Below, one piece after another: positions 10,680 through 29,805 of a stretch of DNA of 64,000 bases. Source of the DNA: Mucilaginibacter arboris (GTDB lineage: Bacteria; Bacteroidota; Bacteroidia; Sphingobacteriales; Sphingobacteriaceae). The first letter of the stretch is position 1. Each line of letters starts with the position of its first letter. Location of the stretch: positions 62,001 to 126,000 of the forward strand of contig NZ_WPIK01000010.1 of assembly GCF_009754915.1 (NCBI RefSeq), written 5' to 3'. The notes under the pieces are model-generated. The model saw only the letters and a list, made by a program, of their open reading frames with translations, was not told the origin of the DNA and did not search any database. Made by a program: the position numbers and the translations under genes.

Positions 10680-10688
10680 AAGAAGCAT
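10674..10688 (+). repeat. Dispersed GAAGCAT motif copy supplying the M1 peptidase stop
   Basis: CCGTAAAAGAAGCAT. The TAA at 10677-10679, which ends the M1 peptidase frame, lies within the motif core. Confidence 0.8.
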
Positions 10689-10713
10689 TGGTTTAAAACC
10701 AGTTAACGACTAC

Positions 10714-10762: not shown

Positions 10763-10780
10763 CACTTTTATGCTGTTTGC

Positions 10781-10951: not shown

Positions 10952-10975
10952 AATGCTTCTTTTACCGGTAAAAAA
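10952..10975 (-). repeat. Dispersed GAAGCAT motif copy abutting the lipoprotein start
   Basis: On the minus strand, TTTTTACCGG joins TAAAAGAAGCATT and runs straight into the ATG of the lipoprotein. The core TTTTACCGGTAAAA is a perfect palindrome. Confidence 0.85.
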
Positions 10976-11048
10976 TAATGTGTACTGTTCTACTCTTTTA
11001 ACAAGTGGCGAACAAAAAGTTTATAATTGTTTATAAAGTTATTTACAA

Positions 11049-14000
11049 TTACCGAATAACGGTAACATAACCGCCATAATTTTTTGTGCCGTCTTTTAAA
11101 TTCAGTACGTAATAATATGTACCAACAGGTACTTCCTGTCCGTTATACCGGCCGTCCCAGGCAGTACCGTAACCTATGGAATGGAACATCCTTACACCAT
11201 AACGGTTGTAAATATCCATGATACAATCCGGGTACCTGTCTAAATTCTGTATGTTCCATACATCGTTTACCCCGTCATTATTAGGCGTAAAAGTATTTGG
11301 GATAACCGGGATCTTTAAAATCCGAATGGCAACTGTATCTACAGCAGTACAGCTATCGGTAGAAGTTACGGTAAGCCGGTACGTAATATCATCCGAAGGC
11401 GTAGCAATAGGGTTAGCAATATGATCGTTGCTTAACCCAGTGGCAGGTGTCCATTTATAACTAAAAATTTTACCGGTAATTTTTGGGGAAAGCCTTACAA
11501 TATCGCCAATGTGGACCCGGATAAGTTTTCCAGCATCTACTACAGGCGTAGGGTTTACGGTGATGTTTTGAGTAAGCGAATCGGCACAACCGGTGCTGGA
11601 TGTGAAAACATATTTAATTTGATGTGTACCAATACCTGCAGCAGCCGGATTAAAAATGCCAGCAGTAACACCTGCGCCTGTATATACGCCTTTACCATTA
11701 GCACCACTAACATCTTCGGCCTGGGTTAACTGAAACGGATTAACTTCCTGGCAAACGCTTCCTAATGCCGTAAATACTACTTTTGGATTAGCATTTAAGG
11801 TGATGGTTTTTTCAGTTATATCAATACAGGTAATGCCTGAATACGCTACCATTCTAACTGTAAAAGTTTTAGTTGCAGGCATATTAAAAATGTCGTACTG
11901 GTGTATATAACGTTTTCCGGCTACCGGGTTTACATCTGTTACCACAACGCCCAGCTGGTTCTGGTAATCGAAATACCATTCAATTTTAGTAATGCTGCCA
12001 ATATCTACGGTAGATTGATTTTCAAAAGTAATGGGTTGATTGCTGCAAACATTGCCGGGGGTAATAATATTGAAAGCGGCTTTTGGCATAGAACCATTTA
12101 CCTGGAAAGGTTTAGTGATGCTTGCAGAACTGCTATCGCCGGCTGTAACTGTAAGGGTAACCTGATAAATTTGAGCTTTGCTAAACCGGTGTGCCGGATT
12201 TTTATCTGTAGAAGTATTTGGGTTAGCGGCTGTTGCATCTGCATCACCAAAATTCCATAAATAAGTTAAAGCTACATTTGTGCCAACGCTATCCGCAGTG
12301 AGGTCAAAAAATTGTGCACTTAAATCAGCGGAGCAAACCTGAGGCGATCTAAAATCAGGCTTATAGGCAGGTTTAGCTGTTACCGACTTTGATATTGTGT
12401 CCTGACACCCCAGATCAGAAGTTACGATTAGCTTAACCTGATAAGTTCCGGCGGCAGTATAATCATGTTCAAAAGTGAGATTATTACTTTTGGTAGCTGT
12501 ACTGCCATCACCAAAAGTCCAGGCCCATCTAACAATTTTACCGTTTACTATTGTTGAAGCATCTTTGAAAAATACAGCAAAATTTTTAAATACAGCATTT
12601 GTATAGGTAAAAGCAGCAACAGGTAAATTATTTACAGTTAAATATTTCTGGGTAGTAGTTTGGCATCCGCTTTCAGAAATTGCAGTTAAACTAACGGTAT
12701 CTATGCCAGGCTTGCTGTAAGTATGTGTTGGGTTTTGCAGGGTAGAAGTAGTGCCATCGCCAAATTTCCAGATCCAGCTTTTAATTACTTTGCTGCTGTC
12801 GGTACTTTTATCAGCAAAAGTAACTGCCGAACCGGCACAAACACTTGCAGGCATGGTAAAAGCGGTAATTGGTGCGCTGTAAACGGTAAAAGGAAAATTA
12901 AAATTCTGATCACCTATCGTACAACCGCCAGTTGAAGGTGGTAAATCTGCCACAATATTAACATTATATAACCCTGCTTTATTGAAAATAGCAGGTTTAG
13001 GTATTACATAAATGTAGTAAGGCTTTGTGTTAATGATCGTATCTTTAGCAACAGGGTTAAGTGTGTTAATTACGGTTGCGGGATTAGACGGAGTGATAGT
13101 CCAAACTATTTTTTGGGTAGGAACATTTAAAGTTACCTGCAGATTGTAATTATCATAAACACAAGCAGATGTAATTGGTAAATTAGTTACCGGATCAACT
13201 GCATTGGCAGTAACGGTTGTTGCCAGGTTTGTTCCGGCAGAGTAGGAATAGGATTCAACCTGACCAAAACCATAGGCTACGGCATTAAAACCATCATCAG
13301 CCGTAAGGTTGAAATTATTAGTGCGATAACCGTTTAAATTAAGCTGTAAATAGGAGTAGCCAGGCAAAGTAGCCATGGGCACAAAAGCCGTAGTTGGTAC
13401 AGCGCCGTTAATACGGAAGCTCGCTACAGATGCTGTTTTTATCAACACATTTATATATTGCTCAGTAATTGCTTCACGGGTAGAAGAATAAACAGTAATG
13501 TTTTTAATACTGTATTCGATAGGATTTAGGATAACCATATCAGGATCTCCTAAAGTCTGAGCTCCATTTATATTAGAGCAACTTGCTGTTAAAGCATATT
13601 GGGCTACACTGATCGGTTTATCGGCAGAAATACTGGCAGGCTGACTTAACGGGGTTGGAGACGAATAAAAGCCGCCTTTATTAAGTGTAGCAACCGTTAC
13701 CCCGTTAATTTGCACGTTTGTATTATCTGCTTCAGCAACTACACGCACGTAATCTCCCAATGTTCTTTCTGTAGCAACATTGCTACCCGGCGCTTTCATG
13801 CTAAAAGGAATAAAGCCGTAAGTTTTTCCCCAGCTTTCAATAGGATAATTTTGCTGATATAATGGATCAATAGAATGTGGCGAGCAACTCGGATCAGCAA
13901 TTGCATCGCCGCTGCTTCCGGAAAACATAGCAAAACGCTTACATCCTGAGGTAGTGCTATCAACCGTTACTGAGGCTCCGGTTAAATCGCTATTAGATAA

Positions 14001-16491: not shown

Positions 16492-16701
16492 CTATTTTTC
16501 GTCGAGGTGGCTAAAATAGTCATCTTTATAAAAATTATCTTCCGCATCTTTCACGTTTCCTGTTTCTGTTGATGCTTCTTTTACCGACAATTTTTGGTTG
16601 ATAAAAGCTAAAATACTTTTTACAAAGTCTATATCAAATTGCTGTTTGCTAAATTTGATTAAGTATTCAGAATCTTTTATTTCAAGGCTTGAGTTTGTCA
16701 T
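16492..16701 (-). CDS. Hypothetical small protein, 69 residues
   Basis: I set the start at the ATG at 16701 (MTNSSLEIKD). The longer frame begins with a TTG inside the lysS terminator stem and is unlikely. The protein is acidic and helical, containing FSKQQFDIDFVKSILAFINQ, and resembles the small proteins that precede PIN or RelE toxins, but no toxin follows. Codons for LSVKEASTE coincide with a GAAGCAT motif copy at 16572-16595, so the frame has either absorbed the repeat or matches it by chance. It is convergent with the 15928 gene. Confidence 0.55.
   Translation of the reverse strand: MTNSSLEIKDSEYLIKFSKQQFDIDFVKSILAFINQKLSVKEASTETGNVKDAEDNFYKDDYFSHLDEK
16572..16595 (-). repeat. Dispersed GAAGCAT motif copy inside a coding frame
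   Basis: The minus strand reads TTTTTGTCGG joined to TAAAAGAAGCAT, translated in the 16492 frame as SVKEAS. Confidence 0.65.
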
Positions 16702-16729
16702 TGCTTCAATATTAAATCTTTTCAAAAAC

Positions 16730-16760
16730 AAAGACCGGCAATTGTTATTAACCGGTCTTT
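16730..16760. terminator. Hairpin between lysS and the small gene
   Basis: AAAGACCGG at 16730-16738 pairs with CCGGTCTTT at 16752-16760. T-rich sequence lies on both sides, so it may serve lysS on the minus strand and transcripts from the plus strand. Confidence 0.7.
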
Positions 16761-16795
16761 AATTTTATGTTAAGATTTGATGAAGTTGATAATGT

Positions 16796-18517
16796 TTATT
16801 CAAACCAACTCATCACCGTTTCTTTTGCAGGAATAGTCATATCCAATTTCAGCTTTTTCCGCATTCCGCCCAGATCATTAAATACTTTGTTGGGCACTGC
16901 TTTTTTCAGGTCATCAACGGTGTGAAACCCCATTTTCTGAATTACCGGAACCCATTCTTCCGGAACGCCAATTTTTACAAAATCTTCTGTTGAAGAAACT
17001 ACCGCTTTATTTTCTGGCCGCATTTGCGGGAAGAACAAAACTTCCTGGATTGTACTTTGGTTAGTCATCAGCATTACCAAACGGTCAATACCGATACCTA
17101 AACCAGAAGTTGGCGGCATCCCGTATTCCAAAGAGCGCAAAAAATCCTCATCCACAACCATTGCTTCTTCGTCGCCACGGCTGGCTAATAATAATTGTTC
17201 CTCAAAACGTTCCCGCTGATCAATCGGATCATTCAATTCAGAGTAAGCATTTGCAATTTCTTTTCCGTTTACAAACAACTCAAAACGCTCTACCAAACCT
17301 TCTTTACTACGATGTTTTTTGGCAAGCGGTGTCATTTCAATAGGATAATCAGTGATATAAGTTGGCTGGATTAATTGCGCTTCTACTTTTTCGCTGAAAA
17401 TTTCATCGATCAGTTTTCCTTTTCCCATAGACGGATCAACTTCAATCTGCAGATTTTTACAAGTTTCTCTTAAAGCCGCTTCATCCATTGCTGAAACATC
17501 GATGCCTGTATATTTCAAAATAGAATCATACATGGAAAGTTTTTCATACGGTCCTGCAAATTCTATCTCATTTTTTCCAACCTGAATTTTAGTTTTTCCG
17601 TGGATAGCCAAGGCTACTTTTTCCAGGCATTCTTCTACCATGCCCATCATCCAGATGTAATCCTGATAAGCTACGTAAATTTCCAACCCGGTAAATTCAG
17701 GATTATGCGTACGGTCCATTCCTTCATTCCGGAACATTTTTCCGAATTCATACACACCGTCAAATCCTGCAACAATCAGTTTTTTCAGATACAATTCATT
17801 GGCAATCCGCAGGAAAAGCGGAACATCTAAAGCATTATGATGTGTTTTAAACGGACGGGCAGCAGCACCGCCATGCACGGATTGTAAAATTGGTGTTTCT
17901 ACTTCCATCCAGCCCTGGTCGTCAAAATAACTACGCATAGTTTTGATCACTTTAGAGCGGTTGATGAAGATCTGCTTGAATTCCGGGTTAACCGTTAAAT
18001 CAACATAACGTTGTCGGTAACGCAATTCAGGATCGGTAAAACTATCGAAAATATGTCCTTCTTCATCACGTTTTACAACAGGAAGTGGTTTTAAAGATTT
18101 CGATAGGATCGTTAATTCCTGTACATGGACAGAAATTTCTCCGGTTTGCGTAATAAAAACAAAGCCTTTAACACCCAAAAAATCACCAATATCTAAAAGC
18201 TTTTTAAAAACAGTATTGTATAAAGTTTTATCCTCAGTCGGACAAATATCATCACGTTTTACATAAACCTGGATACGGCCAGTTGAATCCTGCAACTCTG
18301 CAAAAGAAGCGCTGCCCATAATACGGCGGCTCATGATGCGGCCGGCAATTTGAACGGATTTATATTTCTCCGGATTTTTTTCAAATTCCTGCAAAATCTC
18401 CTGTGCAGTTGCAGTAACCGGAAAAGCTTCGGCAGGATAAGGGTTAATACCTAAATTACGTATGTTTTGAAGCGCCTCGCGGCGTAGGACTTCCTGTTCG
18501 GATAGATTTGTACTCAT
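16796..18517 (-). CDS. lysS: Lysine--tRNA ligase (class II)
   Basis: LysRS charges tRNA-Lys with lysine. Starting at the ATG at 18517 ([16 protein letters not shown]) gives 573 residues. The longer frame from a TTG at 18547 lies within the -7 promoter box and is rejected. Visible features are the OB-fold anticodon domain ([17 protein letters not shown] near 40-60), motif 2 ([15 protein letters not shown]) and motif 3 ([13 protein letters not shown]). A C-terminal extension of about 70 residues ending in FE is normal for Bacteroidota LysRS. Transcription ends at the 16730 hairpin. Confidence 0.96.
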
Positions 18518-18556: not shown

Positions 18557-18590
18557 TTAATGCTAAATTTTAGGTGGTAAAAGAAGTATT
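18557..18590 (+). repeat. Left 33-bp direct repeat around the PIN toxin-antitoxin module
   Basis: It starts TTAATGCTAAATTTTAGG and ends TAAAAGAAGTATT. It matches 19454-19486 at 31 of 33 positions. The toxin-antitoxin genes lie between the two copies. Confidence 0.8.
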
Positions 18591-18650
18591 AATAAAGAAG
18601 GGATTTTTAGATGTCTTGTATTACTCAAAAGGCGGATTTATAAAATCAGA

Positions 18651-19076
18651 CTAACGGTTAATAATTCTCATTTCTAAATAATCGTCAGGTGTCATTACTG
18701 CCAAAGCACTATTTTTATAGTCTTTTGTATTTCTGGTAACAATTAAATCTATTTCCTTACTCAGTTCTGCCGTATAATTTTGTAAGGCATCTTCAAAATC
18801 TTTAAAATCTGAACTTAAAGCCTGTACAACTGCATTTCTGTCAATCACTAATATTTCGGTAATAGAAATTAACATTTTCAATTTTTCTATAACCTTTTCG
18901 TGTTTTGCTGTTTGCCTTAAAAGGTAATAAACGTTACTGATTATTACAGGTGTTATACTACCGGTAATTTGCTTTGATTCACAAAGAGACAATATCTTGG
19001 CAGCAACGTTCGAAAATGGTTGCCTGTCAAAAAAGAAGTCCAAGATAATATCGGTATCAATTAAAATTCTTGTCAT
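18651..19076 (-). CDS. PIN-domain toxin (VapC-like RNase)
   Basis: This 141-residue PIN-domain protein has the first acidic motif ILIDTDIILDFFF (D8) and later acidic residues in DFEDALQNYTA (about 92-102). The last strand is IDLIVTRNTKDYKNSALAVMTPDDYL. PIN toxins are Mg2+-dependent ribonucleases. It lies 3 bp after the antitoxin gene on the same strand, as expected for a type II pair. The module is flanked by 33-bp direct repeats carrying the dispersed motif. Confidence 0.88.
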   Translation of the reverse strand: MTRILIDTDIILDFFFDRQPFSNVAAKILSLCESKQITGSITPVIISNVYYLLRQTAKHEKVIEKLKMLISITEILVIDRNAVVQALSSDFKDFEDALQNYTAELSKEIDLIVTRNTKDYKNSALAVMTPDDYLEMRIINR

Positions 19077-19079
19077 TGC

Positions 19080-19328
19080 CTACAAATACTTTTCGGACAA
19101 CCGTTTTGAAAGTTCTTTATTATAATCAAGATCTGCTGGGCCAGTAAAAGAGCCTTTTAGTAATTTTACAGTTGGCGTAATTTCGATAGTTTCCGGACCG
19201 CTATCTTTTGTAATTGCTTTAAGATAGTTCTCAATTAAATCTGATAAGCTGCGCCCTTTATCTTTGGCATATTTTTTTGCTTTTTCTATTATGGCTTGTT
19301 CAATTGTTAAAGTTAATTTCGTATTCAT
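19080..19328 (-). CDS. Antitoxin of the PIN module (DUF6364-like)
   Basis: The start at the ATG at 19328 (MNTKLTLTIEQAIIEKAKKYAK) gives 82 residues. The longer frame runs into the promoter. The sequence looks like a ribbon-helix-helix-type DNA-binding N terminus (KLTLTIEQAIIEKAKKYA, GRSLSDLIENYLKAI) with a C-terminal tail that would bind the toxin. Such antitoxins usually repress their own promoter. The stop is 3 bp from the toxin start. Confidence 0.82.
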   Translation of the reverse strand: MNTKLTLTIEQAIIEKAKKYAKDKGRSLSDLIENYLKAITKDSGPETIEITPTVKLLKGSFTGPADLDYNKELSKRLSEKYL

Positions 19329-19329
19329 G

Positions 19330-19369
19330 ATATACGTGTTTATTTTATTTTTTTTATACGTATAAAGAT
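19330..19369 (-). promoter_or_regulatory. Possible operator for the toxin-antitoxin operon
   Basis: Two TATACGT words (19331-19337 and 19357-19363), the second within the palindrome TATACGTATA, are separated by an A/T tract. They lie immediately upstream of the antitoxin ATG, where an autoregulatory operator would be expected. Confidence 0.4.
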
Positions 19370-19453
19370 AATAGGTTTTTCTTATATAAACAATATAGCC
19401 AAAGCAATACATTGTTTTTTGCCGCTTCAGCTAAGATCATAGTATTTGAAAAA

Positions 19454-19590
19454 TTAATGCCAAATTTTAGGTGATAAAAGAAGTATCGATAGAAAGGACA
19501 GGAAAAATCTACTATTTTGATTTCAAGAAACAGGATCACAGATCCTAAGCTCAAAAGATTGTGATTGTAAATCCCAACCAGTCGAGATTT
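19454..19590 (+). repeat. Right direct repeat plus 100-bp repeated tail
   Basis: The first 33 bp repeat 18557-18589. The following sequence (GACAGGAAAAATCTACTATT ... GGATCACAGATCCTAAGC ... TGTAAATCCCAACCAG) is repeated nearly exactly at 25970-26065. It includes the palindromic word GGATCACAGATCC. Confidence 0.8.
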
Positions 19591-19682
19591 ACTTGATAAG
19601 TCGTTATAGATCAAATATACAATTTTGATTTGAATAGTAAGTTAAGTAGCTGAATTGCAAATCCCAACCAGAGGATTAACAC

Positions 19683-19704
19683 TTTTAGGCGATAAAAGAA
19701 GCAT
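19683..19704 (+). repeat. Dispersed GAAGCAT motif copy with extended tail
   Basis: CTTTTAGGCGA joined to TAAAAGAAGCAT. The downstream 35 bp (CAACCCAAAAAAGAGGGC ... AAAAGTTTAA) recur after the copy at 22273. It is preceded by another GCAAATCCCAACCAGAGGAT word of the second repeat family. Confidence 0.75.
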
Positions 19705-19819
19705 CAACCCAAAAAAGAGGGCTAGAAAAAAAGTTTAAGATTGAGATTAAAAATCCTTAGCCCGAAAGGGCCGGACTGTAAATTAGAAGCATTGTGATCA
19801 GTGGGATTTCAGAGCAAAG

Positions 19820-19942
19820 TCAAAGATCTTTCATCATCAAACGTTCCTTTACCGTAAATATCCCTGCTTTTACCGCTTCACTCATCTGCTTTGCCTGTTT
19901 AAGATTGTGCTTCGTTTGGCTTCGGTTTAGTTTTGGTACATG
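19820..19942 (-). pseudogene. Possible 3' remnant of an unknown gene
   Basis: A minus-strand frame ends with TGA at 19822-19820 and reads KQAKQMSEAVKAGIFTVK then ERLMMKDL. This looks protein-like, but the frame has no clear start before it runs into the oppositely oriented monooxygenase gene. It may be the C-terminal end of a gene truncated when the monooxygenase segment arrived. The evidence is compositional only. Confidence 0.3.
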
Positions 19943-21115
19943 AAAACAAAAAAAGTATTAATATCCGGCGCCAGTGTGGCCGGGCCGGCACTGGCCTTTT
20001 GGTTGAACCGCTATGGCTTTAAGGTGACCGTGGTAGAGCGGGCGCCAGGTATCCGGCCAGGTGGCTATGCTATAGACTTTCGTGGCCCCGCCATGCAGGT
20101 ATTGGAGCGGATGAATATCGTGGACGCAATTAAAAAATTCGAAACCCGCGCGGGTAAGATCACTATCGTAGATAAAAACAATAAAAAGGTGGCCAGTATG
20201 CCGGATGGTTTTACCAGCGGCAAGTTGGAGATTATGCGCGGTGACTTAGCGAATGTTTTTTACGAGGCTACAAAAGATGATACCGAATATATTTTTGATG
20301 ACAGTATCACAGCTTTAAAGGAAGATGAGGCCGGCGTAGAGGTAAGCTTCAGCCGGAATAAACCCTGTCGCTTTGACCTGGTGGTTGGTGCGGACGGGCT
20401 GCATTCCAATGTACGGACAATAGCCTTTGGCGATGAAGCGCAGTTCTTGCATCACTTGGGAATATACTTCGCCATTTTTACCACGCCTAATTTTATGGAA
20501 CTGAAAGAAATGGCAGGCTTGTATTATGGAACATTGGGCAAGCGCATTGGCGTTTTTAGTGCGAAACAGGATACCGAGGCCAGGGCTAGTTTATATTTTG
20601 CCTCGCCTGCAATTACTTATAATTACCGAGATATCGGCCAGCAAAAGGCAATGGTCCGTGAGCGGTTTGAGGGGGAAGAATGGCAGGTGCCGCAATTGCT
20701 GAAATTTATGAGCGGTGCATCTGATTTTTATTTTGATTCGGTAAGCCAGATTAAAATGAACCGTTGGTCGCGGGGACGGGTGGTGCTAATGGGAGACGCA
20801 GCTCACTGTGCCTCGCCCATGTCAGGAATGGGCACCAGTATGGCAGTTATAGGCGCTTATATTTTAGCAGGCGAGTTGCAGATGGCGCATGACGATCATA
20901 CCAGGGCTTTTAACAGCTATGAAGGACAAATGCGACCCTTGGTTGCATCGTGCCAAAAATTAGCCGAAGGGGCGGAATGGTTTTTGCCCACCACTTGGGT
21001 TAAGCTATGGCTTAGTCAGCAGATATGGAAGATCTTACCTTACACGCCCTGGAAGAATATGATGATTGAAATGCCCCTGAAAGCGGCTAATTCCATCAGC
21101 CTGAAGAATTATTAA
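19940..21115 (+). CDS. FAD-dependent monooxygenase (TetX/PHBH-type)
   Basis: This 391-residue class A flavin monooxygenase has an N-terminal Rossmann motif (LISGASVAGPALAFWL, a GxGxxG variant), the DG motif region LVVGADGLHSNVR near residue 150, and the GD motif GRVVLMGDAAHCASPMSGMG near 285. Such enzymes hydroxylate aromatic compounds, or antibiotics in the case of TetX. The substrate is not predictable here. The gene is flanked by dispersed repeats, and its coding composition (GGCCGGG-rich start) is more GC-rich than its neighbours, which suggests acquisition. Confidence 0.85.
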   Translation: MKTKKVLISGASVAGPALAFWLNRYGFKVTVVERAPGIRPGGYAIDFRGPAMQVLERMNIVDAIKKFETRAGKITIVDKNNKKVASMPDGFTSGKLEIMRGDLANVFYEATKDDTEYIFDDSITALKEDEAGVEVSFSRNKPCRFDLVVGADGLHSNVRTIAFGDEAQFLHHLGIYFAIFTTPNFMELKEMAGLYYGTLGKRIGVFSAKQDTEARASLYFASPAITYNYRDIGQQKAMVRERFEGEEWQVPQLLKFMSGASDFYFDSVSQIKMNRWSRGRVVLMGDAAHCASPMSGMGTSMAVIGAYILAGELQMAHDDHTRAFNSYEGQMRPLVASCQKLAEGAEWFLPTTWVKLWLSQQIWKILPYTPWKNMMIEMPLKAANSISLKNY

Positions 21116-21188
21116 ATAACCACCTGAGTGAAAGTGATGGGCAATTAGTTGGGGATCGACAGATCTTAAGTTTAAAGGTCGTAATTGC

Positions 21189-21266
21189 AGGATCATAGGT
21201 CCTAAGCTTGAAAGATCGTGATTACAAATCCCCGATCAGAGGATTACAAATCCCGACCCGAGGGGA
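21189..21266 (+). repeat. Second dispersed repeat family (GATCC-TAAGCT / AAATCCC words)
   Basis: It contains GGATCATAGGTCCTAAGCTT, GAAAGATCGTGATTACAAAT and a second ATTACAAATCCCGACC. Related copies lie at 19543-19590, 19658-19680, 25857-25890 and 26012-26065. All are intergenic and lie in the accessory region. Confidence 0.65.
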
Positions 21267-21297
21267 TAACTGCAAAACGATGCTGAAAATTTTTTGA

Positions 21298-21972
21298 TTA
21301 AAAAATATAAGGAATAAAGCGATAGCGAACTTTCTTTAAGTAATCGATATATCCAGTCAAATCTCTTGCTAACACTTTTTCTTCATTTATTGCCCTGGCA
21401 ACAACTAAGCATGAAATGATAATTGCAGGCAATAAAGCAATATACGACCCCAGACATAAAGGGGTAAACAGTATAATCAGGTAAGCGCCGCTATACATAG
21501 GATGACGGACCCATGCGTATAATCCAGTAGTAATAACCCTCTGCCCCTGATAAGCTTTAATATTGCTTGCCAGATATGTATTTTGCTTGAATACGATAAA
21601 TACGATCAGAAATCCTGTCGATACAACCACCTCGGAGAGTAACGTTATATAAAAAGGGATAGTTGACCAATGCTGCCTGAAATCAATGCCGGGAAGTATG
21701 AGCATCAAAACAAATAGCAAGCCATTTACAGATTGCAGCATTATTTGTGTCTTATTTGTTTCCGTATGTGTTCTACGCTCAATTAATTTTGGGTCTGTTT
21801 TTAGAAAATAGAAAGTCAATATAGATGTTCCGCAAATGAAGACCATTAAATAAATCCATGCTGCCTTATATTTAGTTGTTCCTGCCGGGACGAATAATGA
21901 TAAAGCCAATATCAGGTATAACAAGGCAAGCAATGCGCTAACTTTAAAAGTCAACATTCTTTTAAAATTCAT
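21298..21972 (-). CDS. Isoprenylcysteine carboxyl methyltransferase-family membrane protein
   Basis: I chose the ATG at 21972 (MNFKRMLTFKVS), giving 224 residues; the longer frame uses TTG. There are five to six hydrophobic segments. The C terminus has the ICMT/PEMT signature VRHPMYSGAYLI near 165 and NEEKVLARDLTGYIDYLKK near 200, which bind S-adenosylmethionine. The natural substrate of bacterial members is generally unknown. It stands alone between repeat-rich gaps. Confidence 0.8.
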   Translation of the reverse strand: MNFKRMLTFKVSALLALLYLILALSLFVPAGTTKYKAAWIYLMVFICGTSILTFYFLKTDPKLIERRTHTETNKTQIMLQSVNGLLFVLMLILPGIDFRQHWSTIPFYITLLSEVVVSTGFLIVFIVFKQNTYLASNIKAYQGQRVITTGLYAWVRHPMYSGAYLIILFTPLCLGSYIALLPAIIISCLVVARAINEEKVLARDLTGYIDYLKKVRYRFIPYIF

Positions 21973-22150
21973 AAGCTTTATGGTAAGCAACAAAAGTGAT
22001 TAAAATGACTGGCAGTAGTATCGATTTTTAATTTTAGCCGAAAATATTATTTGCCGATTTATTCTATCAACTTATTAAGGTGAAATTGAAACTGGCTAGA
22101 CTCATTCTTAGCTTTACATTAAAAAATAAAAGTTGAAGATTAAACTTTTA

Positions 22151-22337
22151 GGTTTCTGTTTAAATTTTTAAAGACTCCTTCGATATTCTCAGGATTGGTA
22201 CCCATGCTTCTTTTACCAGGTAAAAATTGATGTTTGAATGTATTTAATCAATCAAAAAAACAACGGTTAACATTTTTAGGTGATAAAAGAAGCATCAACC
22301 CAAAAAAGAGGGCCAGGAAAAAAGTTTAAACAACTTC
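22151..22337. mobile_element. MITE-like element A
   Basis: The ends are imperfect inverted repeats built on CTGTTTAAA: left TTCTGTTTAAATTTTT, right AAAAAAGTTTAAACAACTTC. Inside are two GAAGCAT motif copies facing outward as inverted repeats (22204-22228 minus, 22273-22295 plus). A word CTTCGATATTCTCAGGATTG at 22178-22197 is also present in element B. There is no coding sequence. Confidence 0.5.
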
Positions 22338-22397
22338 ATTGAAACAAATGTGAAATTTTTGTGTGTTAGCTTTTTTTACAAGTTTATTCAAATGCCG

Positions 22398-22420
22398 ATG
22401 CTTCTTTTATCGCTGAATTT
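22398..22420 (-). repeat. Dispersed GAAGCAT motif copy
   Basis: Minus strand AAATTCAGCGA joined to TAAAAGAAGCAT. The following bases (CAGGAACTGAAG) resemble the sequence after the copies at 26091 and 26958. Confidence 0.75.
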
Positions 22421-22538
22421 ATTAAGTAAAGCAGGAACTGAAGTTAGAAAACTTTCAGATGAAGACCTTTTCCCACTTGACACAAAACCACTATTAGCGG
22501 GCCGTTGTTGTTGCATCGTCAGTTCGTGGTGTTATTTC

Positions 22539-22910
22539 TTACTCCGATACAATGATATAATAACCGTCCAAGTCCCTTAGAATAAATTGTTGCTTTCCTG
22601 AATTAGGATTGTAGTGCAGTTCTTGTTCAATGTTCAGTTTTAAACGAACTGCGTTTCTCCAAATCTCTTGAAAGTTAGACACTTTAAAATACAGAATAAG
22701 CCCGTTGCCAACAGTAACTTTAGGATTTGTCATTGTCGGGTGATCGTGTTCTCCCCATTTATGCAGGCATAAGATAACTGTTCCGTCTTTATCGGTTAAT
22801 ATTTCAAAAGTGTCACCACCGTGATTGCTTTTACAATCTAACAGATCTTGATACCATTTTGAACTTATGGGAACGTCTTTTACTGCAATTATAGTTTCGC
22901 TTCTTGTCAT
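22539..22910 (-). CDS. VOC-family (glyoxalase/bleomycin resistance-like) protein
   Basis: This 123-residue protein with one vicinal-oxygen-chelate module begins with ETIIAVKDVPISSKWYQDLL, the classic beta-alpha start. It ends with FILRDLDGYYIIV, which carries the usual terminal metal-ligand position replaced by Y. The function is unspecific: lyase, dioxygenase or binding protein. It is the last gene of the ECF42 sigma operon. Its ATG overlaps the stop of a short upstream frame (ATGA), indicating coupling. Confidence 0.8.
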   Translation of the reverse strand: MTRSETIIAVKDVPISSKWYQDLLDCKSNHGGDTFEILTDKDGTVILCLHKWGEHDHPTMTNPKVTVGNGLILYFKVSNFQEIWRNAVRLKLNIEQELHYNPNSGKQQFILRDLDGYYIIVSE

Positions 22911-23038
22911 TCTACTACTTTGAGATTCTCATAGCTTTCAATTTTTTCCAATTGTTGTTGGCTGCAAACTTCTCGTATTCTTCCACCCGAACTTATGCCA
23001 ATAAAATTACAAGTTTTGATGTTAAAACTAATGCCCAT
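22907..23038 (-). CDS. Small protein or 3' gene fragment, 43 residues
   Basis: The frame MGISFNIKTCNFIGISSGGR then IREVCSQQQLEKIESYENLK ends in TGA overlapping the VOC start. The same frame stays open upstream to about 23119 without an ATG (GIILNICSLSDF), so this may be the tail of a truncated gene rather than a complete small gene. The residue pattern looks like real protein. No family was recognised. Confidence 0.45.
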   Translation of the reverse strand: MGISFNIKTCNFIGISSGGRIREVCSQQQLEKIESYENLKVVE

Positions 23039-23135
23039 TGAAAAACTTCTGCCCAAACTAAAATCCGATAAAGAACAAATGTTGAGAATTATTCCGTCCG
23101 CCTCACGAAAAAACCCATCTTATCTGCTGTTTTTA

Positions 23136-23450
23136 TTAAACGCTAACTGTATCATATAAATAAATTTGTACATCGCCATTGTCAGGTGCTAATATTTTTC
23201 TGTCTTCTGCACATTGTCTGCCAATATCTGTATCAAATGCTTTTTTTATCGCTTCTAAATTGTCAAAATATAAATTGCCAATCCAAAACGTTTCCTCATT
23301 ACCTGAAGGTGAGATAATGTTCCCTTTATTTACTATATATTTTCTTAAACCCGGAAGCTGCTTTGCAAGTGGAATGTGAACGTTATAATAATGTTTTTCA
23401 AATGCTTCTTTATTTTTTGGTGTTTTGTAGATCACTGTCATGTTTGCCAT
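23136..23450 (-). CDS. EthD-family protein
   Basis: This 104-residue ferredoxin-like dimeric alpha-beta barrel protein has the EthD pattern VIYKTPKNKEAFEKHYYNVHIP followed by LAKQLPGLRKY, and F/Y-rich strands later. EthD proteins accompany degradative or stress-response enzymes and their biochemical role is unclear. It lies 34 bp after the ECF sigma gene and shares its strand, so it probably belongs to that operon. Confidence 0.82.
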   Translation of the reverse strand: MANMTVIYKTPKNKEAFEKHYYNVHIPLAKQLPGLRKYIVNKGNIISPSGNEETFWIGNLYFDNLEAIKKAFDTDIGRQCAEDRKILAPDNGDVQIYLYDTVSV

Positions 23451-23484
23451 AATAATTCTATTTCTGTTTTGATGAAAATTTTTT

Positions 23485-24735
23485 CTAAATTGTTTTTTTG
23501 TCCTTTTTTAGTTTTAATAATTCAATTTCCTTTGTTAGCGTTTGTTTTTCAATCTTGGATGTTGTAAGCTTAATGGCATGTTGGTAATGAGAAATCGCTT
23601 TTTCTATGTCCGTGCCTGCATATAAGTAGCCTAACAATCCGTGATAATAGTTGCTGTCTGTCAGGTTAAGTTTTTCGGCTTCTGTAATAGCTTTTTTGTG
23701 TCCGTAAACTTTGGCATAAGCAAATACCCTGTTCAACATCGCTATGGGCGAATACTCAATAAGAATAAGCTGATTGTATAACTGTAAAATGTGTTGCCAT
23801 TTGTTTTTCTCTGTTGGTGTTGTGTGCCAATAGGCAATGGCAGCTTCCAAATGATATTTTGAAACTTCGTTTCCGTTGCAGGCATTTATCAAATAGTTGT
23901 TGCCTTTTTCAATTAACCATTTGTCCCACAAATTTTTGTTTTGTTCGTTAAAAAGAATTGCTTCGCCTTTTTCGTTTGTTCTTGCATCAAGTCTTGAACT
24001 TTGAAAGTACATTAACGCCAATAAAGCATTTGTTTGCGGTGTATTGGTCAATATGTTTTCTGTCAATGTCAAAGTCAGTCTGATGGCTTCCAGACAAAGT
24101 TCTTTTCTGATAGGTAGATTATTGGTTTTGGAAAAATAGCCTTCGTTAAACAGCAAGTATAAAGTTTTCAAAACGGTATTTAACCGTAATTTGATTTCAG
24201 GTTGGCTTAACGATTTGATTTGAAAATTATCGTTGCGAAGATTATTCCTTGCCCGCTGCAAACGTTTTTTAATAGTTTCGGTTTTTGTAAGAAAAGCATT
24301 AGCGATTTCTTCAATGCTAAAACCACAAAGAATTTGTAGTGCTAAACATATTTGCGCCCCGGCAGAATTGATTGGATTGCAAACTAAAAAAATCATTGCT
24401 AATTGGCTATCTGCAATATTTTGATTGGTGAATTCAAAATCACATTCAGCTTCAATTCCACCTGGTTTTATCGCTTTCTGAACCTGTGTTTCAAACACGG
24501 CAAAGTGCTTGAAATAATCTTTGGCTTTATTTTTGGCAACAGCGTAAAGCCACGCTGTTGGGTTTTCCGGTATTCCGTGAACAGCCCAACTTTCAGATGC
24601 TTTTAAAAAAGTTTCGCTTGCAATATCTTCTGCAATTTCAATATTTTTTAATTGAAATGTTTTACAAAGTACAGCTACAATTTTGCTATACTCTGTCCTA
24701 AACAAATGTGGGGTTATTTCATTTTGTTTCATCAT
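23485..24735 (-). CDS. ECF42-type RNA polymerase sigma factor with TPR-like C-terminal extension
   Basis: This 416-residue protein has sigma region 2 at about residues 10-75 (EDIASETFLKASESW, WLYAVAKNKAKDYFK) and sigma region 4 at about 130-180 (GFSIEEIANAFLTKTETIKKRLQRAR). A roughly 230-residue helical, TPR-like tail follows. That long tail and the adjacent DGPF-domain gene are the hallmarks of ECF42 sigma factors, which lack a classical anti-sigma factor and whose tail controls activity. It lies 42 bp after the DGPF gene and is expected to regulate its own operon. Confidence 0.88.
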   Translation of the reverse strand: MMKQNEITPHLFRTEYSKIVAVLCKTFQLKNIEIAEDIASETFLKASESWAVHGIPENPTAWLYAVAKNKAKDYFKHFAVFETQVQKAIKPGGIEAECDFEFTNQNIADSQLAMIFLVCNPINSAGAQICLALQILCGFSIEEIANAFLTKTETIKKRLQRARNNLRNDNFQIKSLSQPEIKLRLNTVLKTLYLLFNEGYFSKTNNLPIRKELCLEAIRLTLTLTENILTNTPQTNALLALMYFQSSRLDARTNEKGEAILFNEQNKNLWDKWLIEKGNNYLINACNGNEVSKYHLEAAIAYWHTTPTEKNKWQHILQLYNQLILIEYSPIAMLNRVFAYAKVYGHKKAITEAEKLNLTDSNYYHGLLGYLYAGTDIEKAISHYQHAIKLTTSKIEKQTLTKEIELLKLKKDKKTI

Positions 24736-24777
24736 AGAAAATGCCTTTGCATTGTCTGCAAAGGCTTTTGCAAAAAG

Positions 24778-25119
24778 TTACATTGCACTAATTTCTCTAA
24801 TTTCCACGCTACCGCCAATAGAAAGAATTGGACAATCTTGAACCAAAGCTGTTGCTTCTTCAAGCGATGTAGATTTAATGAGTGTATAACCCATAATTGA
24901 TTCCTTGATTTCAGTATATGGCCCGTCTGAAATTATGCCATCGCTTTTCAATACTTTGCCTGAACTTACCAAACGGTTTCCCCTGTCAGATAATTTGTTT
25001 TGTGCTGCAAAGCCTGCAATCCAATTCATCCATATTTGGGTGTTTGCCTGCATTTCTTCAGGTGATGCTTTAGGCATAGACTGGTAATCTGCCCTAAATA
25101 CTAATAAAAATTCTTTCAT
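24778..25119 (-). CDS. YCII/DGPF-domain protein
   Basis: This 113-residue protein has the motif DGPYTEIKE (about residues 67-75) that names the DGPF family, followed by GYTLIKSTSLEEA. Such genes are the conserved partners of ECF42 sigma factors, usually cotranscribed and thought to be targets or modulators. It is the first gene of the operon DGPF - sigma - EthD - VOC. It has an ATG start with no obvious ribosome-binding site, as usual in Bacteroidota. Confidence 0.88.
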   Translation of the reverse strand: MKEFLLVFRADYQSMPKASPEEMQANTQIWMNWIAGFAAQNKLSDRGNRLVSSGKVLKSDGIISDGPYTEIKESIMGYTLIKSTSLEEATALVQDCPILSIGGSVEIREISAM

Positions 25120-25218
25120 TTGTTTAAAATTTTATTGTTCGTCTTAATAACGATCGACATTCCAAACAGGGGACAAAGTCCGTTAGTTTTTTTTGTAGGA
25201 ACGTATCGGTTTATATAA

Positions 25219-25400
25219 GAAGCCGTTTAAATTTATATCAGATCCTTCGATATTCTCAGGATTGATCCTGATGCTTCTTTTAGCACTATAAAATTAGCAT
25301 TTGCCCTTTGCCAAAAGATACAAAAAGCAAATGACCTTGCAGATTTTTAGGTGATAAAAGAAGCATATCAAATAATTTGAACAAAATTTAAAACAGCTTC
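25219..25400. mobile_element. MITE-like element B
   Basis: The left end is GAAGCCGTTTAAATTT (25219-25234). The right end is the reverse complement of GAAGCTGTTTTAAATTT (25384-25400), differing by one base and one inserted T. Two outward-facing GAAGCAT copies lie inside (25271-25294 minus, 25344-25366 plus). It shares the internal word CTTCGATATTCTCAGGATTG with element A. There is no coding capacity. Confidence 0.6.
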
Positions 25401-25537
25401 TAACAGGTAACGTTCCTGGGTTGATGAAGAACTGATATTTAAAATCTGTCAGCCCAAAAACACTTACTAAAGATAAGCAAGATTACAAATATCGGATAAC
25501 TTCCGGCCATTGGTTTTTGTCAAACCAAATGTTTCAA
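25398..25537 (-). other. attC-like arms, degenerate
   Basis: TTCTAAC (25398-25404) is followed by TTGATGAAGAACTGATATTT (25421-25440) and GTCAGCC. It then continues to a GGCCATTGGTTTTTGTCAAA CCAAATG arm at 25513-25537. The same two arms occur in better form at 26883-26919 and 27041-27072. Confidence 0.4.
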
Positions 25538-26068
25538 ACAGTTTATTTAAAAGCGTCAAATACAAATTTTGATTTTTTAAAACCTGCCAGAAGCGGTAAA
25601 AAACATACTTGAACATTTAAGCTTAAAGACGGCGGTTTAAAAGTCCGGGATTGTTTTTTGTGTAGCCAAAACCGTAAAGTTGATTTGTTATTTAGAACTT
25701 CCAAGTTGCATTTTAGCAACTTAAAGTTGGCTGGCAATACTGTTTTTACCACCCAAAAACTTGTTTACAGATTTTACACTGATAAAAACAGCATTGCGAA
25801 AAAGTCAGTGTAAACTTTTAACTGTTGCCAGAAACCGGCCTTGTGTAGGCGCTTTGAGGATCACAGATCCTAAGCTCAAAAGATGGTGATTACTCATAAA
25901 TTTTTCACCAAAAATTGTAGCTGGCAAAAATAGGTTTAATGCCAAATTTTAGGTGATAAAAGAAGTATTAATAGAAAAGACAGGAAAAATCTACTATTTT
26001 GATTTCAAGAAACAGGATCACAGATCCTAAGCTCAAAAGATCATGATTGCAAATCCCGACCAGGCGAG
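25538..26068. repeat. Non-coding repeat mosaic
   Basis: No supported gene. It contains two motif variants of the TAAAAACAG type (25737-25760 minus, 25771-25795 plus) and a second-family repeat at 25857-25890. An 80-bp copy of the lysS promoter and first codons lies at 25891-25972. This is joined directly, through one GAAGTAT motif copy (25946-25969), to a 100-bp copy of 19487-19590. Confidence 0.7.
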
Positions 26069-26206
26069 TTAAATTAATATTCAAATGTTAATGCTTCTTT
26101 TATCAGCTAAATTTTATTCCTTCCGCTGGAACTGAAGCAAAATAGCAAAACAAAAGTTGATATTTAATCCGTCAGCCAGTTTTTTGCCAAACCAATGTTA
26201 GCGGTA
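26069..26206 (-). repeat. 135-bp intercassette repeat, copy 1
   Basis: It is nearly identical to 26934-27074. From the GAAGCAT copy (26091-26113) it runs through TTCCTTCCGCTGGAACTG, AGCAAAATAGCAAAACAAAA and GTCAGCCAGTTTTTTGCC to GTTAGCGGTA at 26197-26206. The last 10 bp are the perfect inverse of 26873-26882 across the next gene. Confidence 0.7.
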
Positions 26207-26214
26207 GTTTTTTA

Positions 26215-26823
26215 TTAAATTATATTGGCAGTTTTTAAAATCAGATAAATTGCCATAGTTGATAAACCTATAATTATTATTCGAGTTACAAGTTTTGTAT
26301 AACCTTTTTCATTCCACTCCTCCCAATGAGTTGTTACTCGTATCGATTTTTCTTTACAAAGATCATCTAAATAGTCTATCAAATTTAAAATATCACCTCG
26401 GAAGAATTTGTTGTCATAGGAGTTTATGTAAAAACTGTTTGTTTGGTTATTGGTAGTTGGTGTATCGAAATAAATTTTAACACTGCGTTGGTTACTATTT
26501 AACTGTCGATCGATCCGGATCTTTTTAATGTCTTTAAAATGAATTGTCTCGGTTTTAACAAAGTTAAACGGAAGTTTTCTAATCCATTCGATTTTGAATT
26601 TTTCATTATCTACAATTATTGAGAATTGGCTATAAATGAAATAATAAAACAGTCCAAAAGTAAGAGCAAGCAAGCTCAGAATTAAGATAACAGTAAATGC
26701 GGCATTTGGAACCCATTTATTTATTTCAAGAGAAATCAGCAATAGTCCAAAGGTTACAAAAGGAAATAAAATAAGACCTCTATAAGGTTGGATTGATTTT
26801 ATGTCAAACCTCATTTGTGTCAT
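26215..26823 (-). CDS. Membrane protein of unknown function (cassette-like unit 1)
   Basis: This 202-residue protein has two N-terminal membrane segments (about 15-33 and 40-62), a soluble beta-rich middle region resembling a bacterial PH-like fold (SIIVDNEKFKIEWIRKLPF, FKDIKKIRIDR), and a C-terminal hydrophobic segment (about 178-198). No family is assigned. It lies alone between 10-bp perfect inverted repeats, as in an integron gene cassette, and reads toward the attC-like repeat at its 3' end. The start abuts a truncated GAAGCAT motif (AAGAAGCATTATG). Confidence 0.7.
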   Translation of the reverse strand: MTQMRFDIKSIQPYRGLILFPFVTFGLLLISLEINKWVPNAAFTVILILSLLALTFGLFYYFIYSQFSIIVDNEKFKIEWIRKLPFNFVKTETIHFKDIKKIRIDRQLNSNQRSVKIYFDTPTTNNQTNSFYINSYDNKFFRGDILNLIDYLDDLCKEKSIRVTTHWEEWNEKGYTKLVTRIIIIGLSTMAIYLILKTANII

Positions 26824-26872
26824 AATGCTTCTTAATGTGCTTTAGTAATGCAATCTGGTTGTGTGTCAAAAT

Positions 26873-27074
26873 TACCGCTAACGGAAAAGGCTTGGCGAAG
26901 AACTGATATTTGAAACCCGTCAGCCAAAACCAGAGTTAAATTTATAATCAAATGTTGATGCTTCTTTTATCAGCTAAATTTATGTTCCTTCCGCTGAAAC
27001 TGCAGCAAAATAGCAAAACAAAAGCTGATAAAACATTCGTCGGCCAGTTTTTTGCCAAACCAATGTTGGGCGTA
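26873..27074 (-). other. attC-like recombination site between two cassette-like genes
   Basis: The outer core sites are TACCGCTAAC (26873-26882) and GTTGGGCGTA (27065-27074), with GCCCAAC fitting RYYYAAC on the minus strand. Inner arms TTGGCGAAGAACTG (26892-26905) and CAGTTTTTTGCCAA (27045-27058) pair over 14 bp with two G-T pairs. The site is long for an attC (about 200 bp) because a GAAGCAT copy (26958-26980) and spacer lie in its loop. Confidence 0.45.
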
Positions 27075-27084
27075 GGCTTTTTAG

Positions 27085-27237
27085 TCAGCGTGTTTTCGGT
27101 TGCAATTTTGTTTTGTCCAGATAAGCTTGCAATTGTTCAAAAGTCATTCCTTGTATGTCTTTTGAAATATTCTCTTTAATTTCCCTAAAAAATTTGACAG
27201 TGTCAAACTCTTTTTCTTTTTTATCAATTGTTTTCAT
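27085..27237 (-). CDS. Small partner (likely antitoxin) of the PIN protein, 50 residues
   Basis: A frame from ATG at 27237 to TGA at 27085-27087 reads MKTIDKKEKEFDTVKFFREI followed by a helical stretch (KENISKDIQGMTFEQLQAYL). This pattern resembles the small antitoxins that accompany PIN proteins in Bacteroidota. It overlaps the 3' end of the toxin gene by 14 bp, so the two are translationally coupled, with the toxin first. It lies just inside the cassette-like boundary at 27074. Confidence 0.72.
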   Translation of the reverse strand: MKTIDKKEKEFDTVKFFREIKENISKDIQGMTFEQLQAYLDKTKLQPKTR

Positions 27238-27688
27238 AACCTACAATTTCTTTTGGTGAACGGATGTCAATGGTTGAATATCCTAACCGTAAATTTACAG
27301 AATTGTACCCACGGATTCTATAAACATTTACAATGTGTTTAAAGTTCCAGCTTACTAAAATGTCAACCTTGCTTAAAGTTGCAGTTGCAATGTGGATGCA
27401 ATCATCTAAACTTGTTTGCCCAACTACATTTTCGTCAATATAAGTTTGGGCAAGTTTTAAAGCTTCCGGCGTAACGCGTATAACTTCTTTTTGTTCATCT
27501 TTCAGGTCTTGGAAAAAGTCTTTGACACGTTGTGGCGCTTTTTGAAGTTCGCTTTCTGTCAGGTTTGAATAAACACAGACGATTTGTCCCAAAGCAACTT
27601 TTTCAAAAAGCATTGTAGTTTCTTTTTCGAATTCAATATCATATAAACCGCCGAAAACAGAAGTGTCAAAATAGAAGCGTTGGGTCAT
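27224..27688 (-). CDS. PIN-domain toxin (cassette-like unit 2)
   Basis: The start at the ATG at 27688 (MTQRFYFDTSVFGGLYD) gives 154 residues; the longer frame uses TTG. PIN features are FDTSVFGG with the first aspartate, TESELQKAP, TSLDDCIHIATA and VDILVSWNFKHI. It is likely an RNase toxin paired with the overlapping 50-residue gene downstream. The whole pair sits between GTTGGGCGTA and its perfect inverse TACGCCCAAC, as toxin-antitoxin cassettes in chromosomal integrons do. Confidence 0.85.
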   Translation of the reverse strand: MTQRFYFDTSVFGGLYDIEFEKETTMLFEKVALGQIVCVYSNLTESELQKAPQRVKDFFQDLKDEQKEVIRVTPEALKLAQTYIDENVVGQTSLDDCIHIATATLSKVDILVSWNFKHIVNVYRIRGYNSVNLRLGYSTIDIRSPKEIVGYENN

Positions 27689-27738
27689 GGGCGAATTTAC
27701 GAAAATCAATTTTATGTTCGATAGGTTTCACGTAAGCT

Positions 27739-27748
27739 TACGCCCAAC
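27739..27748 (-). other. Cassette-like boundary, outer core site
   Basis: TACGCCCAAC is the exact reverse complement of 27065-27074. The match continues for five more bases with one mismatch. It marks the 5' edge of the PIN unit on the minus strand. Confidence 0.5.
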
Positions 27749-27862
27749 TCTTTTATTGACGAAAGTCTCATAAATATTATTGAATTCCAATCCATTCCTC
27801 AGTCATAACTTTTATTCAAATCGCTATTGCAAACCCGATTAAATTATATTATAATATTTCAA

Positions 27863-27884
27863 ATACTTCTTTTACTACTAATAA
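27863..27884 (-). repeat. Dispersed GAAGTAT motif copy
   Basis: The minus strand reads TTATTAGTAG joined to TAAAAGAAGTAT, just downstream of the acyl-CoA ligase stop codon. Confidence 0.7.
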
Positions 27885-27891: not shown

Positions 27892-29805
27892 TCAAACCAT
27901 ATCAATCTCCTGCAAATACAATTGATCAATTGCTTCCGCATATTTCTTCTCAATCACCTTTCTTTTGGCTTTTAAAGTTGGCGTAATTTCGCCTGCTTCC
28001 ATGCTGAAAGGGTTGCGTTTTACTTTGAAGTTTTTGATCCGTTCAAACTTGGCCAGTTCGTTAGATAGTTTTTTTACATCTTCATTCATCCAATCCACAA
28101 TACGTTTATCTTCAATAAAAACATCTGGTTGTTCAAAGTAAGCTTCATTTAAACCAAAAGTTTCCTGCAATATTTCTTTGGAAGGAATAATAAAAGCGGT
28201 AACATATTCGCGTTTATCGCCGATTAAAAATATCTGTTCTATTTTCGGACTTTTTAAATAGGTGTTTTCTACAGGAGTTGGATAAACATTTTTACCGAAA
28301 GAATTAACCAACATGTTTTTTAATCGGTCTGTTATCTGCAAGTTTCCTTTGTAAAAGCGGCCAATATCGCCTGTATGGAACCAGCCATCAGCATCAATTA
28401 CATTCCGGGTTTCTTCCGGTTTGTTCCAGTAACCTTTCATTACACAATGGCCGCGCGTGATAATTTCGCCTTCTTCTGATTCAAAATCAGGTTTAAAAGT
28501 ATCGTGGGTTTGGATGGTGTATATTTTTTGGGTATCAATGTTCTGGATTGCTACTTCTATGCGCGGAATAATCCTGCCTACGGTTCCATAAACCTGTCTG
28601 TCATATTCGGTAACAGACATTACCGGCGAAGTTTCCGTCAATCCAAATCCTTCCAAAACTTTAATGCCTAAATCTCCAAAAAACTCGCCTACGTTTTTTG
28701 GTAAAGCACCTCCGCCGGAGAGCATGAATTTTAATTTTCCGCCTGTTTTTTCTTTAATTTTGCTGAAAACCAATTTGTCCGCTAATTTATTTTCGGCACT
28801 TAAAATCAAGCCCGGGTTTTTGCCTGCTTCTTTTAGTACCCTAAATTTCCGGCCTTTCTCTAAACTCCATAAAAATAATTTGGTTTTGATCCCTCCGGAA
28901 GCTTGTCCGCTTTTCATAGCACGGTCGTGTATCCTTTCCAGCAACCTGGGTACACAACTTACTACCGTTGGCTTAATTTCGGCCATGTTTTTAGCCAGTA
29001 GTTCCAGGCTTTGTGCAAATGCAATTTTAGATCCTGTTGCCAAACAAACGTGGTAGGTTGCCGTACGCTCAAAAACATGTGAAAGCGGTAAAAAGGAAAG
29101 GAATACATCCTCTTTAGTGATAACTGTAATCTGGTCCAGAGAGGCACGCACATTTTGCGTTAAGTTATAGTGGGTAAGCATTACACCTTTTGGTGTTCCG
29201 GTTGTGCCGGAAGTATAAATTAAAGTAGAAACATCGGAAGTTAAAATGCTTTCGCGACAACTGTTGATGGTTGATAGATAAGCATTTAATACTTGTTTTC
29301 CTTCTGTAATTAAAGCTGAAAAGGAAATGATGCCTGCATTAAATTTAGCTTTTTCGGTATATTTCTGATAGTCATCAAAAATTGGGATAATGCGAATTAA
29401 TTCGGTACAGCTATTGGCAATTTTTAGTATTTTTTTGAGGAGAAACGGACTGCCAATCAATAAAGTTTTAGCGCCGGAATCATTCAGGATATATTCTATT
29501 TCTGTTTCTGAAAGGGTAGGATAGATGGAAGTATTTACTGCACCGATTTGCTGCAAAGCCTGATCGTAATATACATAATCCGGGCCGTTATCCAGAATTA
29601 GCGCTAAACGATCATTTTTCTTTATCCCCATATCTAAAAAATAGGCAGAAATGGCATTGATCTTTTCCAAAGCTTGTTTGTAAGTAATGTCTTCCCAAAC
29701 TTCGCCCACTTTATGGGTCATAAAAACAGCACTATCGGGATGGATATGATGAATAATATTTTGTAAAAGACTGGGAACAGTGGAATATTCGGTAACCGGG
29801 TTCAT
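27892..29805 (-). CDS. AMP-dependent long-chain acyl-CoA synthetase
   Basis: The enzyme activates fatty acids to acyl-CoA through an acyl-adenylate. The 637-residue protein shows the phosphate-binding loop YTSGTTGTPKGVMLTH near 195-210 and the adenylate motif GFGLTETSPV near 390. It also has WFHTGDIG near 465 and the C-terminal lysine domain. Its length and the LSGGGALP motif match the FadD15/bubblegum-type long-chain ligases of Bacteroidota. It is monocistronic, facing away from the isc genes. Confidence 0.9.
   Translation of the reverse strand: MNPVTEYSTVPSLLQNIIHHIHPDSAVFMTHKVGEVWEDITYKQALEKINAISAYFLDMGIKKNDRLALILDNGPDYVYYDQALQQIGAVNTSIYPTLSETEIEYILNDSGAKTLLIGSPFLLKKILKIANSCTELIRIIPIFDDYQKYTEKAKFNAGIISFSALITEGKQVLNAYLSTINSCRESILTSDVSTLIYTSGTTGTPKGVMLTHYNLTQNVRASLDQITVITKEDVFLSFLPLSHVFERTATYHVCLATGSKIAFAQSLELLAKNMAEIKPTVVSCVPRLLERIHDRAMKSGQASGGIKTKLFLWSLEKGRKFRVLKEAGKNPGLILSAENKLADKLVFSKIKEKTGGKLKFMLSGGGALPKNVGEFFGDLGIKVLEGFGLTETSPVMSVTEYDRQVYGTVGRIIPRIEVAIQNIDTQKIYTIQTHDTFKPDFESEEGEIITRGHCVMKGYWNKPEETRNVIDADGWFHTGDIGRFYKGNLQITDRLKNMLVNSFGKNVYPTPVENTYLKSPKIEQIFLIGDKREYVTAFIIPSKEILQETFGLNEAYFEQPDVFIEDKRIVDWMNEDVKKLSNELAKFERIKNFKVKRNPFSMEAGEITPTLKAKRKVIEKKYAEAIDQLYLQEIDMV

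Follow-up and report, generated by a model that had tools for sequence, protein, structure and literature searches.

How did a small toxin-antitoxin module come to lie between two copies of a 33-bp repeat upstream of the essential gene lysS in Mucilaginibacter arboris, and what is the dispersed motif that both copies contain? We analysed a stretch of 64,000 nucleotides around this locus (the window) and compared it with related genomes. Within the genus, the comparison covers three species only: M. arboris itself (G000), an uncultured Mucilaginibacter sp. (CALMAT; G001), and Lichen_MAGs_lobaria3 (CAHJWG; G002). We propose a joint explanation, to which we assign a probability of about 0.5: the gap beside lysS would be a hotspot for accessory DNA, the motif would act as an uptake sequence, and the cargo in the gap would have arrived by transformation.

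A toxin-antitoxin module in a variable gap beside lysS

The module consists of a PIN_3-domain toxin gene with an antitoxin gene directly upstream, as in type II toxin-antitoxin pairs (Table 1). The longest open reading frame of the antitoxin starts at 19412, but the gene probably begins at the ATG given in the table, which matches the length and start of an 82-aa homologue in G001. As far as can be read from the genes alone, the pair shares with VapBC-like type II systems the small antitoxin gene immediately 5' of a PIN_3 toxin gene, and differs from them in its antitoxin, for which the Pfam match is DUF6364 and not a named VapB family. Scanning the window for Rfam families and tRNAs found nothing.

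Table 1. Features of the lysS/acyl-CoA synthetase region, in window coordinates
Feature	Position	Strand	Basis or remarks
lysS (lysyl-tRNA synthetase), left border gene	16796..18517	-	Pfam tRNA-synt_2
Left 33-bp repeat, the native lysS-upstream copy of the genus motif	18557..18589	+	TAAAAGAAGTAT at 18578; also at the orthologous place in G001 and G002
9.27-kb insertion separating lysS from the acyl-CoA synthetase gene	18594..27862		blastn against G002
PIN_3-domain toxin, 141 aa	18651..19076	-	Pfam PF13470, E 7.5e-20
DUF6364 antitoxin, 82 aa from ATG at 19328	19080..19328	-	Pfam PF19891, E 1.8e-26
Right 33-bp repeat	19454..19486	+	genus motif TAAAAGAAGTAT at 19475
Second dispersed repeat, AGGATCACAGATCCTAAGCTCAAAAGAT	25857..25884	+	repeat search of the window
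Module-free junction	25891..26065	+	lysS-upstream segment, one motif, right flank
Truncated attC (R'' CCGCTAAC), genus motif inside	26068..26204	-	matches attC sites of the L151 array at up to 94% identity
Cassette gene, 202 aa, no Pfam match	26215..26823	-	cassette start GTTAGCGG (26882-26875), complementary to R'' CCGCTAAC
Complete attC, about 195 bp (R'' CGCCCAAC ... R' GTTAGCGG), motif in the middle	26875..27072	-	
Second cassette gene, weak PIN match below the Pfam cut-off	27224..27709	-	cassette start GTTGGGCG (27748-27741), complementary to R'' CGCCCAAC
Copy of the genus motif at the insertion's right edge	27863..27874	-	G001 and G002 have it at this position too
Long-chain acyl-CoA synthetase, right border gene	27892..29805	-	name read from sequence

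In G002 and in many relatives, lysS adjoins the acyl-CoA synthetase gene, and the synthetase protein near lysS in G001 and G002 is 85-87% identical. Homology between M. arboris and G002 ends at 18593 and resumes at 27863 (blastn), with only 48 bp between these points in G002. Neither sister species has the module at lysS: G002 is truly empty, and G001 contains a different insert of 2.9 kb between lysS and the synthetase gene. The comparison of close relatives recommended in the preliminary description has thus yielded empty, differently filled, and filled alleles, which, in conjunction with the module-free junction and the empty G002 site of a second module described below, support gain, or differential retention, of the module at this site. 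In Pedobacter and other relatives, lysS and the synthetase gene commonly lie 61-253 bp apart, and 1.3-4.7 kb separate the two genes in several relatives that are free of the motif. The gap therefore accepts inserts with or without the motif, and these alleles identify it as a likely insertion hotspot for accessory DNA. The G001 insert carries a TIR-domain-like gene (L032 15276-16124) and an acyltransferase-like gene (16573-17673), both named from sequence.

The PIN and antitoxin genes do lie between direct repeats, as first described: the left and right copies are identical at 31 of 33 positions, and the motif occurs in both. At 25936-25968 lies a third copy, which is identical to the right one at all 33 positions and to the left one at 31. 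Pairwise comparison over the same 33-bp window of 463 motif sites from sampled parts of the M. arboris genome gave a mean identity of 18.8; only 20 of the 106,953 pairs reached 31 or more, and the majority of these involve integron attC sites or other duplications. The similarity of the repeats thus exceeds what a shared motif would confer and is not due to chance.

The third copy forms part of a junction at which, again as described, the lysS-side flank and the right flank of the module are joined through a single motif. From the lysS start codon to the motif, the 25.9-kb copy is 91% identical to the left copy, and to the right of the motif the identity is 92% (19487-19583 versus 25969-26065); the other two flanks gave no meaningful alignment (45% and 58% in forced global alignments). 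This arrangement is what would be expected of the same locus without the module. Its interpretation as an empty site holds in that a module-free junction exists, but the junction is located inside the 9.27-kb insertion of M. arboris itself and not elsewhere in the genome. Within the 33-mer, the 25.9-kb copy shares both variable bases with the right copy, while the bases that follow directly (TAAT) match the left copy; with so few informative bases, this mixed agreement does not distinguish a site that predates the gain from a product of loss. At its left edge, the segment is joined at the lysS start codon to the repeat AGGATCACAGATCCTAAGCTCAAAAGAT. This second repeat is found four times in the island (19532, 21189, 25857, and 26014), twice more on the contig, and also in the G001 insert.

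A dispersed motif in three Mucilaginibacter genomes

The 12-letter motif TAAAARMAGYAT occurs 3,246 times in M. arboris, compared with 21 occurrences of its reversed control, and 3,710 and 2,655 times in G001 and G002, respectively, with 12-21 occurrences of the reversed pattern across the three genomes. Among about 400 genomes of the family Sphingobacteriaceae that were searched, high counts are confined to these three; the remainder are at background, with at most about 95 copies per genome. A longer form of the motif is present 926 times in M. arboris versus 0-5 times in 249 other genomes of the order, and viral contigs contained no match to a 22-nt form. Copies in M. arboris are divided equally between the strands (1,626 and 1,620). 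A polar motif of the Chi or KOPS type was considered and rejected, as no clear strand bias was seen per contig.

Further statistics were obtained from 509-609 kb of M. arboris in addition to the whole-genome counts, with genes called crudely as longest open reading frames. In 509 kb, 164 of 396 motif sites (41%) fall in called genes and 232 (59%) are intergenic. Close pairs (<80 bp) are more often inverted than direct (39 versus 9), and, once clusters are collapsed, the sites are spaced a little more evenly than at random (CV 0.91, P 0.01). The consensus comprises an A/T tract at -12 to -7, a G at -2, TAAAA, either GA or AC at positions 6-7, AG, C/T, and AT; the core TAAAARMAGYAT has a T-tract upstream, and little sequence is conserved beyond about 24 bp around the motif. 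In 609 kb there are 273 exact occurrences of the form TAAAAGAAGCAT and none of its reversed control, whereas variants with one change at the seven strictest positions (2-5, 8, 9, and 11) amount to about 14 in total. Intergenic inverted motif pairs about 80 bp apart lie at 22204-22295 and 25271-25366 in the window and recur elsewhere in M. arboris and in the sister species.

Between M. arboris and G002, the motif is kept at 87 of 114 aligned sites, with flanks about 74% identical. At 12 of the 87 kept sites the GA and AC forms have replaced each other in place, which argues for recognition of both by one factor. Loss at the remaining 27 sites occurred by substitution without a gap in the core in 20 cases and with a core gap in seven. 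Motif density is 0.76-0.82 per kb in accessory regions versus 0.65 per kb in shared regions; since it is no lower in the former, the motif does not mark shared as opposed to newly arrived DNA here, a point against the joint explanation.

The motif as a candidate DNA uptake sequence

What is the function of a motif with these properties? Its abundance, lineage restriction, strand balance, and conservation in place match the properties of DNA uptake sequences, and our analysis points to a role in natural transformation as the most likely one. In the uptake signal sequences (USS) of Pasteurellaceae, an A/T tract adjoins the motif. The genus motif resembles the known DNA uptake sequences (DUS) of Neisseriaceae and these USS in being short, in occurring in thousands of copies on both strands and in both coding and intergenic DNA, in forming inverted pairs, in its restriction to one lineage, in the A/T tract alongside (as in USS), and in its retention at orthologous sites. 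It differs in its host, a member of the Bacteroidota and not of the Pseudomonadota, in its sequence, in having two forms, with GA or AC at positions 6-7, that can replace each other, and in belonging to a genus in which no type IV pilus ATPase was found. DUS, too, form inverted pairs that are associated with terminators (PMC3630211). As of 2025, Neisseriaceae and Pasteurellaceae were stated to be the only families known to have uptake motifs (PMC12616744), and, judging provisionally from the open-licence papers that we searched, an uptake motif in Bacteroidota would be new. A function in termination, in chromosome organisation, or as the site of an unspecified DNA-binding protein could alternatively account for the conservation of the motif.

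ComEC is present, but the genus lacks the type IV pilus ATPase family. This absence speaks against an uptake function but is not fatal to it, since Riemerella, also of the Bacteroidota, is transformable with no pilus homologue found, and a novel uptake machinery has been hypothesised for it (PMC8459023). We speculate, at slightly less than even odds, that the motif belongs to a third, independently evolved DUS system, the first outside Pseudomonadota and in a genus lacking the type IV pilus ATPase, in which even attC sites bear the motif, which would mark cassettes and toxin-antitoxin pairs for exchange. If so, self-tagging of DNA would have evolved repeatedly, even in a lineage seemingly without the pilus that binds the motif elsewhere; the motif would provide a handle on the machinery hypothesised for Riemerella (PMC8459023) and would help to explain the presence of small modules at different places in sister species without an adjacent transposase.

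Applied to the lysS locus, the joint explanation would involve the following steps. Motif-tagged DNA from related cells would have been taken up; one of its ends would then have recombined by way of the homology at lysS and the opposite end with short homology or none; and the toxin-antitoxin pair would have remained, along with other cargo and, at 25.9 kb, a second stretch of lysS-upstream DNA that lacks the module. Homology-facilitated illegitimate recombination is a known process in transformation. The island shares with it one homologous end (lysS), one end with short or no homology, and a duplicated flank at the junction, and differs in that it presents a pattern in the DNA and not an observed event. 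It is on this one duplicated junction that we suggest such a process. A further point against the joint explanation is that the hotspot takes inserts in motif-free relatives too.

Other routes for the module

Is the motif itself the site of recombination, with the module entering or leaving by exchange between motif copies, as the preliminary description proposed? Direct repeats identical at 31 of 33 positions and a module-free junction with one copy are what such a mechanism would leave, and, for the 25.9-kb junction alone, a short-repeat deletion between the two 33-mers is possible. A second locus offers a similar picture. Contig C139 of G001 encodes a homologous module (75% DNA identity, 72% for the toxin), and the orthologous site in G002 is an empty intergenic region with one motif, compared with two in the filled G001 allele. 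The G001 copies, however, are an upstream minus-strand and a downstream plus-strand motif, and hence inverted rather than direct. Bracketing of a module by motif copies comes cheaply, since 55% of intergenic gaps of at least 60 bp contain a motif.

Breakpoints argue in the same direction. For 37 gaps of at least 300 bp in either genome that separate collinear aligned blocks of M. arboris and G002, the ends were set against random intergenic positions; they fall within 200 bp of a motif in 58% versus 56% of cases, within 100 bp in 43% versus 41%, and within 20 bp in 24% versus 14%. The excess at 20 bp is expected, because the motif itself is conserved and alignments tend to stop just past it. 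Breakpoints are thus not enriched near motifs, and the motif was rejected as a general site-specific insertion site. Considering also that motif-free relatives carry inserts at the same lysS position, and that the motif occurs in coding sequence as well and stays in place between species, we regard gain or loss of the module by recombination at the motif as unlikely.

As the G001 module lies elsewhere in the genome and its site lacks the module in both G002 and M. arboris, the same toxin-antitoxin family occupies different intergenic sites in two sister species. At the site of the G001 module, M. arboris has an unrelated 230-aa gene with a signal-peptide-like start (L145 16076-16768).

The 25.9-kb junction could also be an assembly artefact that joins the alleles of two strains. 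The M. arboris assembly comprises 83 contigs, the island could be a mixture of strains, and the duplicated parts differ by 8-9%, as those of strains might. Yet the island runs into conserved genes on both sides, and the segment 25999-26094 recurs at 82% identity in the G001 insert at the same place, which makes an artefact improbable.

A further route is suggested by the right part of the island, where two integron cassettes at 26068-27748 on the minus strand are delimited by the complementary cores GTTGGGCG/CGCCCAAC and GTTAGCGG/CCGCTAAC, the pairing that defines attC sites. The truncated attC ends where it meets the 25.9-kb segment, and the island's attC sites match, at up to 94%, those of an array that opens contig C5 (L151 1-6600). 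An array on contig C13 (L214, G000:C13:45000-57444, 7852-12445) follows the gene for a 368-aa tyrosine recombinase, which overlaps ssb; ssb adjoins the recombinase gene in each of the three species and also in a single genome that is more distant. A search allowing up to three mismatches detected 68 attC half-sites in M. arboris, five in G001, 32 in G002, and none in G013. M. arboris has at least 68 half-sites, and most of those inspected carry the genus motif. The DNA fold of one attC, assessed as a single site, was not significant (z -1.46).

In its two cassettes with R''/R' complementarity, its half-sites, and the array that accompanies a tyrosine recombinase at another place in the genome, the system resembles chromosomal integrons and isolated attC clusters. 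It differs in the ssb gene next to the recombinase, in the genus motif inside attC, and in the putative integrase, which scores 187.8 bits against the integron-integrase model TIGR02249 (cut-off 265) with a match that skips positions 180-240, and has no counterpart of the stretch at about residues 207-246 of IntI4 (2a3v), the IntI-specific insertion in the region of the I2 helix. This helix has been described as necessary for cassette capture and as occurring in no other protein (eLife, PMC7790495). For Bacteroidetes proper, IntegronFinder 2.0 listed a single complete integron, that of Salinibacter (PMC9024848). At E up to 1e-30, relatives of the recombinase were found in 129 of the 395 Bacteroidota genomes searched, a few of them with an attC-like site within 1.5 kb, which is a hint only as our home-made finder is too strict for the sites of M. 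arboris itself.

It is conceivable, then, that the toxin-antitoxin pair is itself a cassette inserted by the integrase of the genus, given that the same island and genome hold cassettes, a putative integrase next to ssb, and abundant attC half-sites, and that other cassettes carry PIN/VapC toxins. Since no attC half-site is found around 18.6-19.45 kb, nor close to the G001 homologue, we rejected the pair as a cassette and consider this origin very doubtful.

Finally, the motif as the end of a transposable repeat of the MITE or REP type, with the module carried along, would fit the recurring intergenic repeats with a motif pair (22.20-22.30 and 25.27-25.37 kb) and the presence of the motif in attC and other repeats, but is largely refuted by sites that stay orthologous while their flanks diverge and that differ mostly by substitutions and not insertions, the location of many sites in called genes and the scarcity of conserved sequence outside the motif also standing against it.
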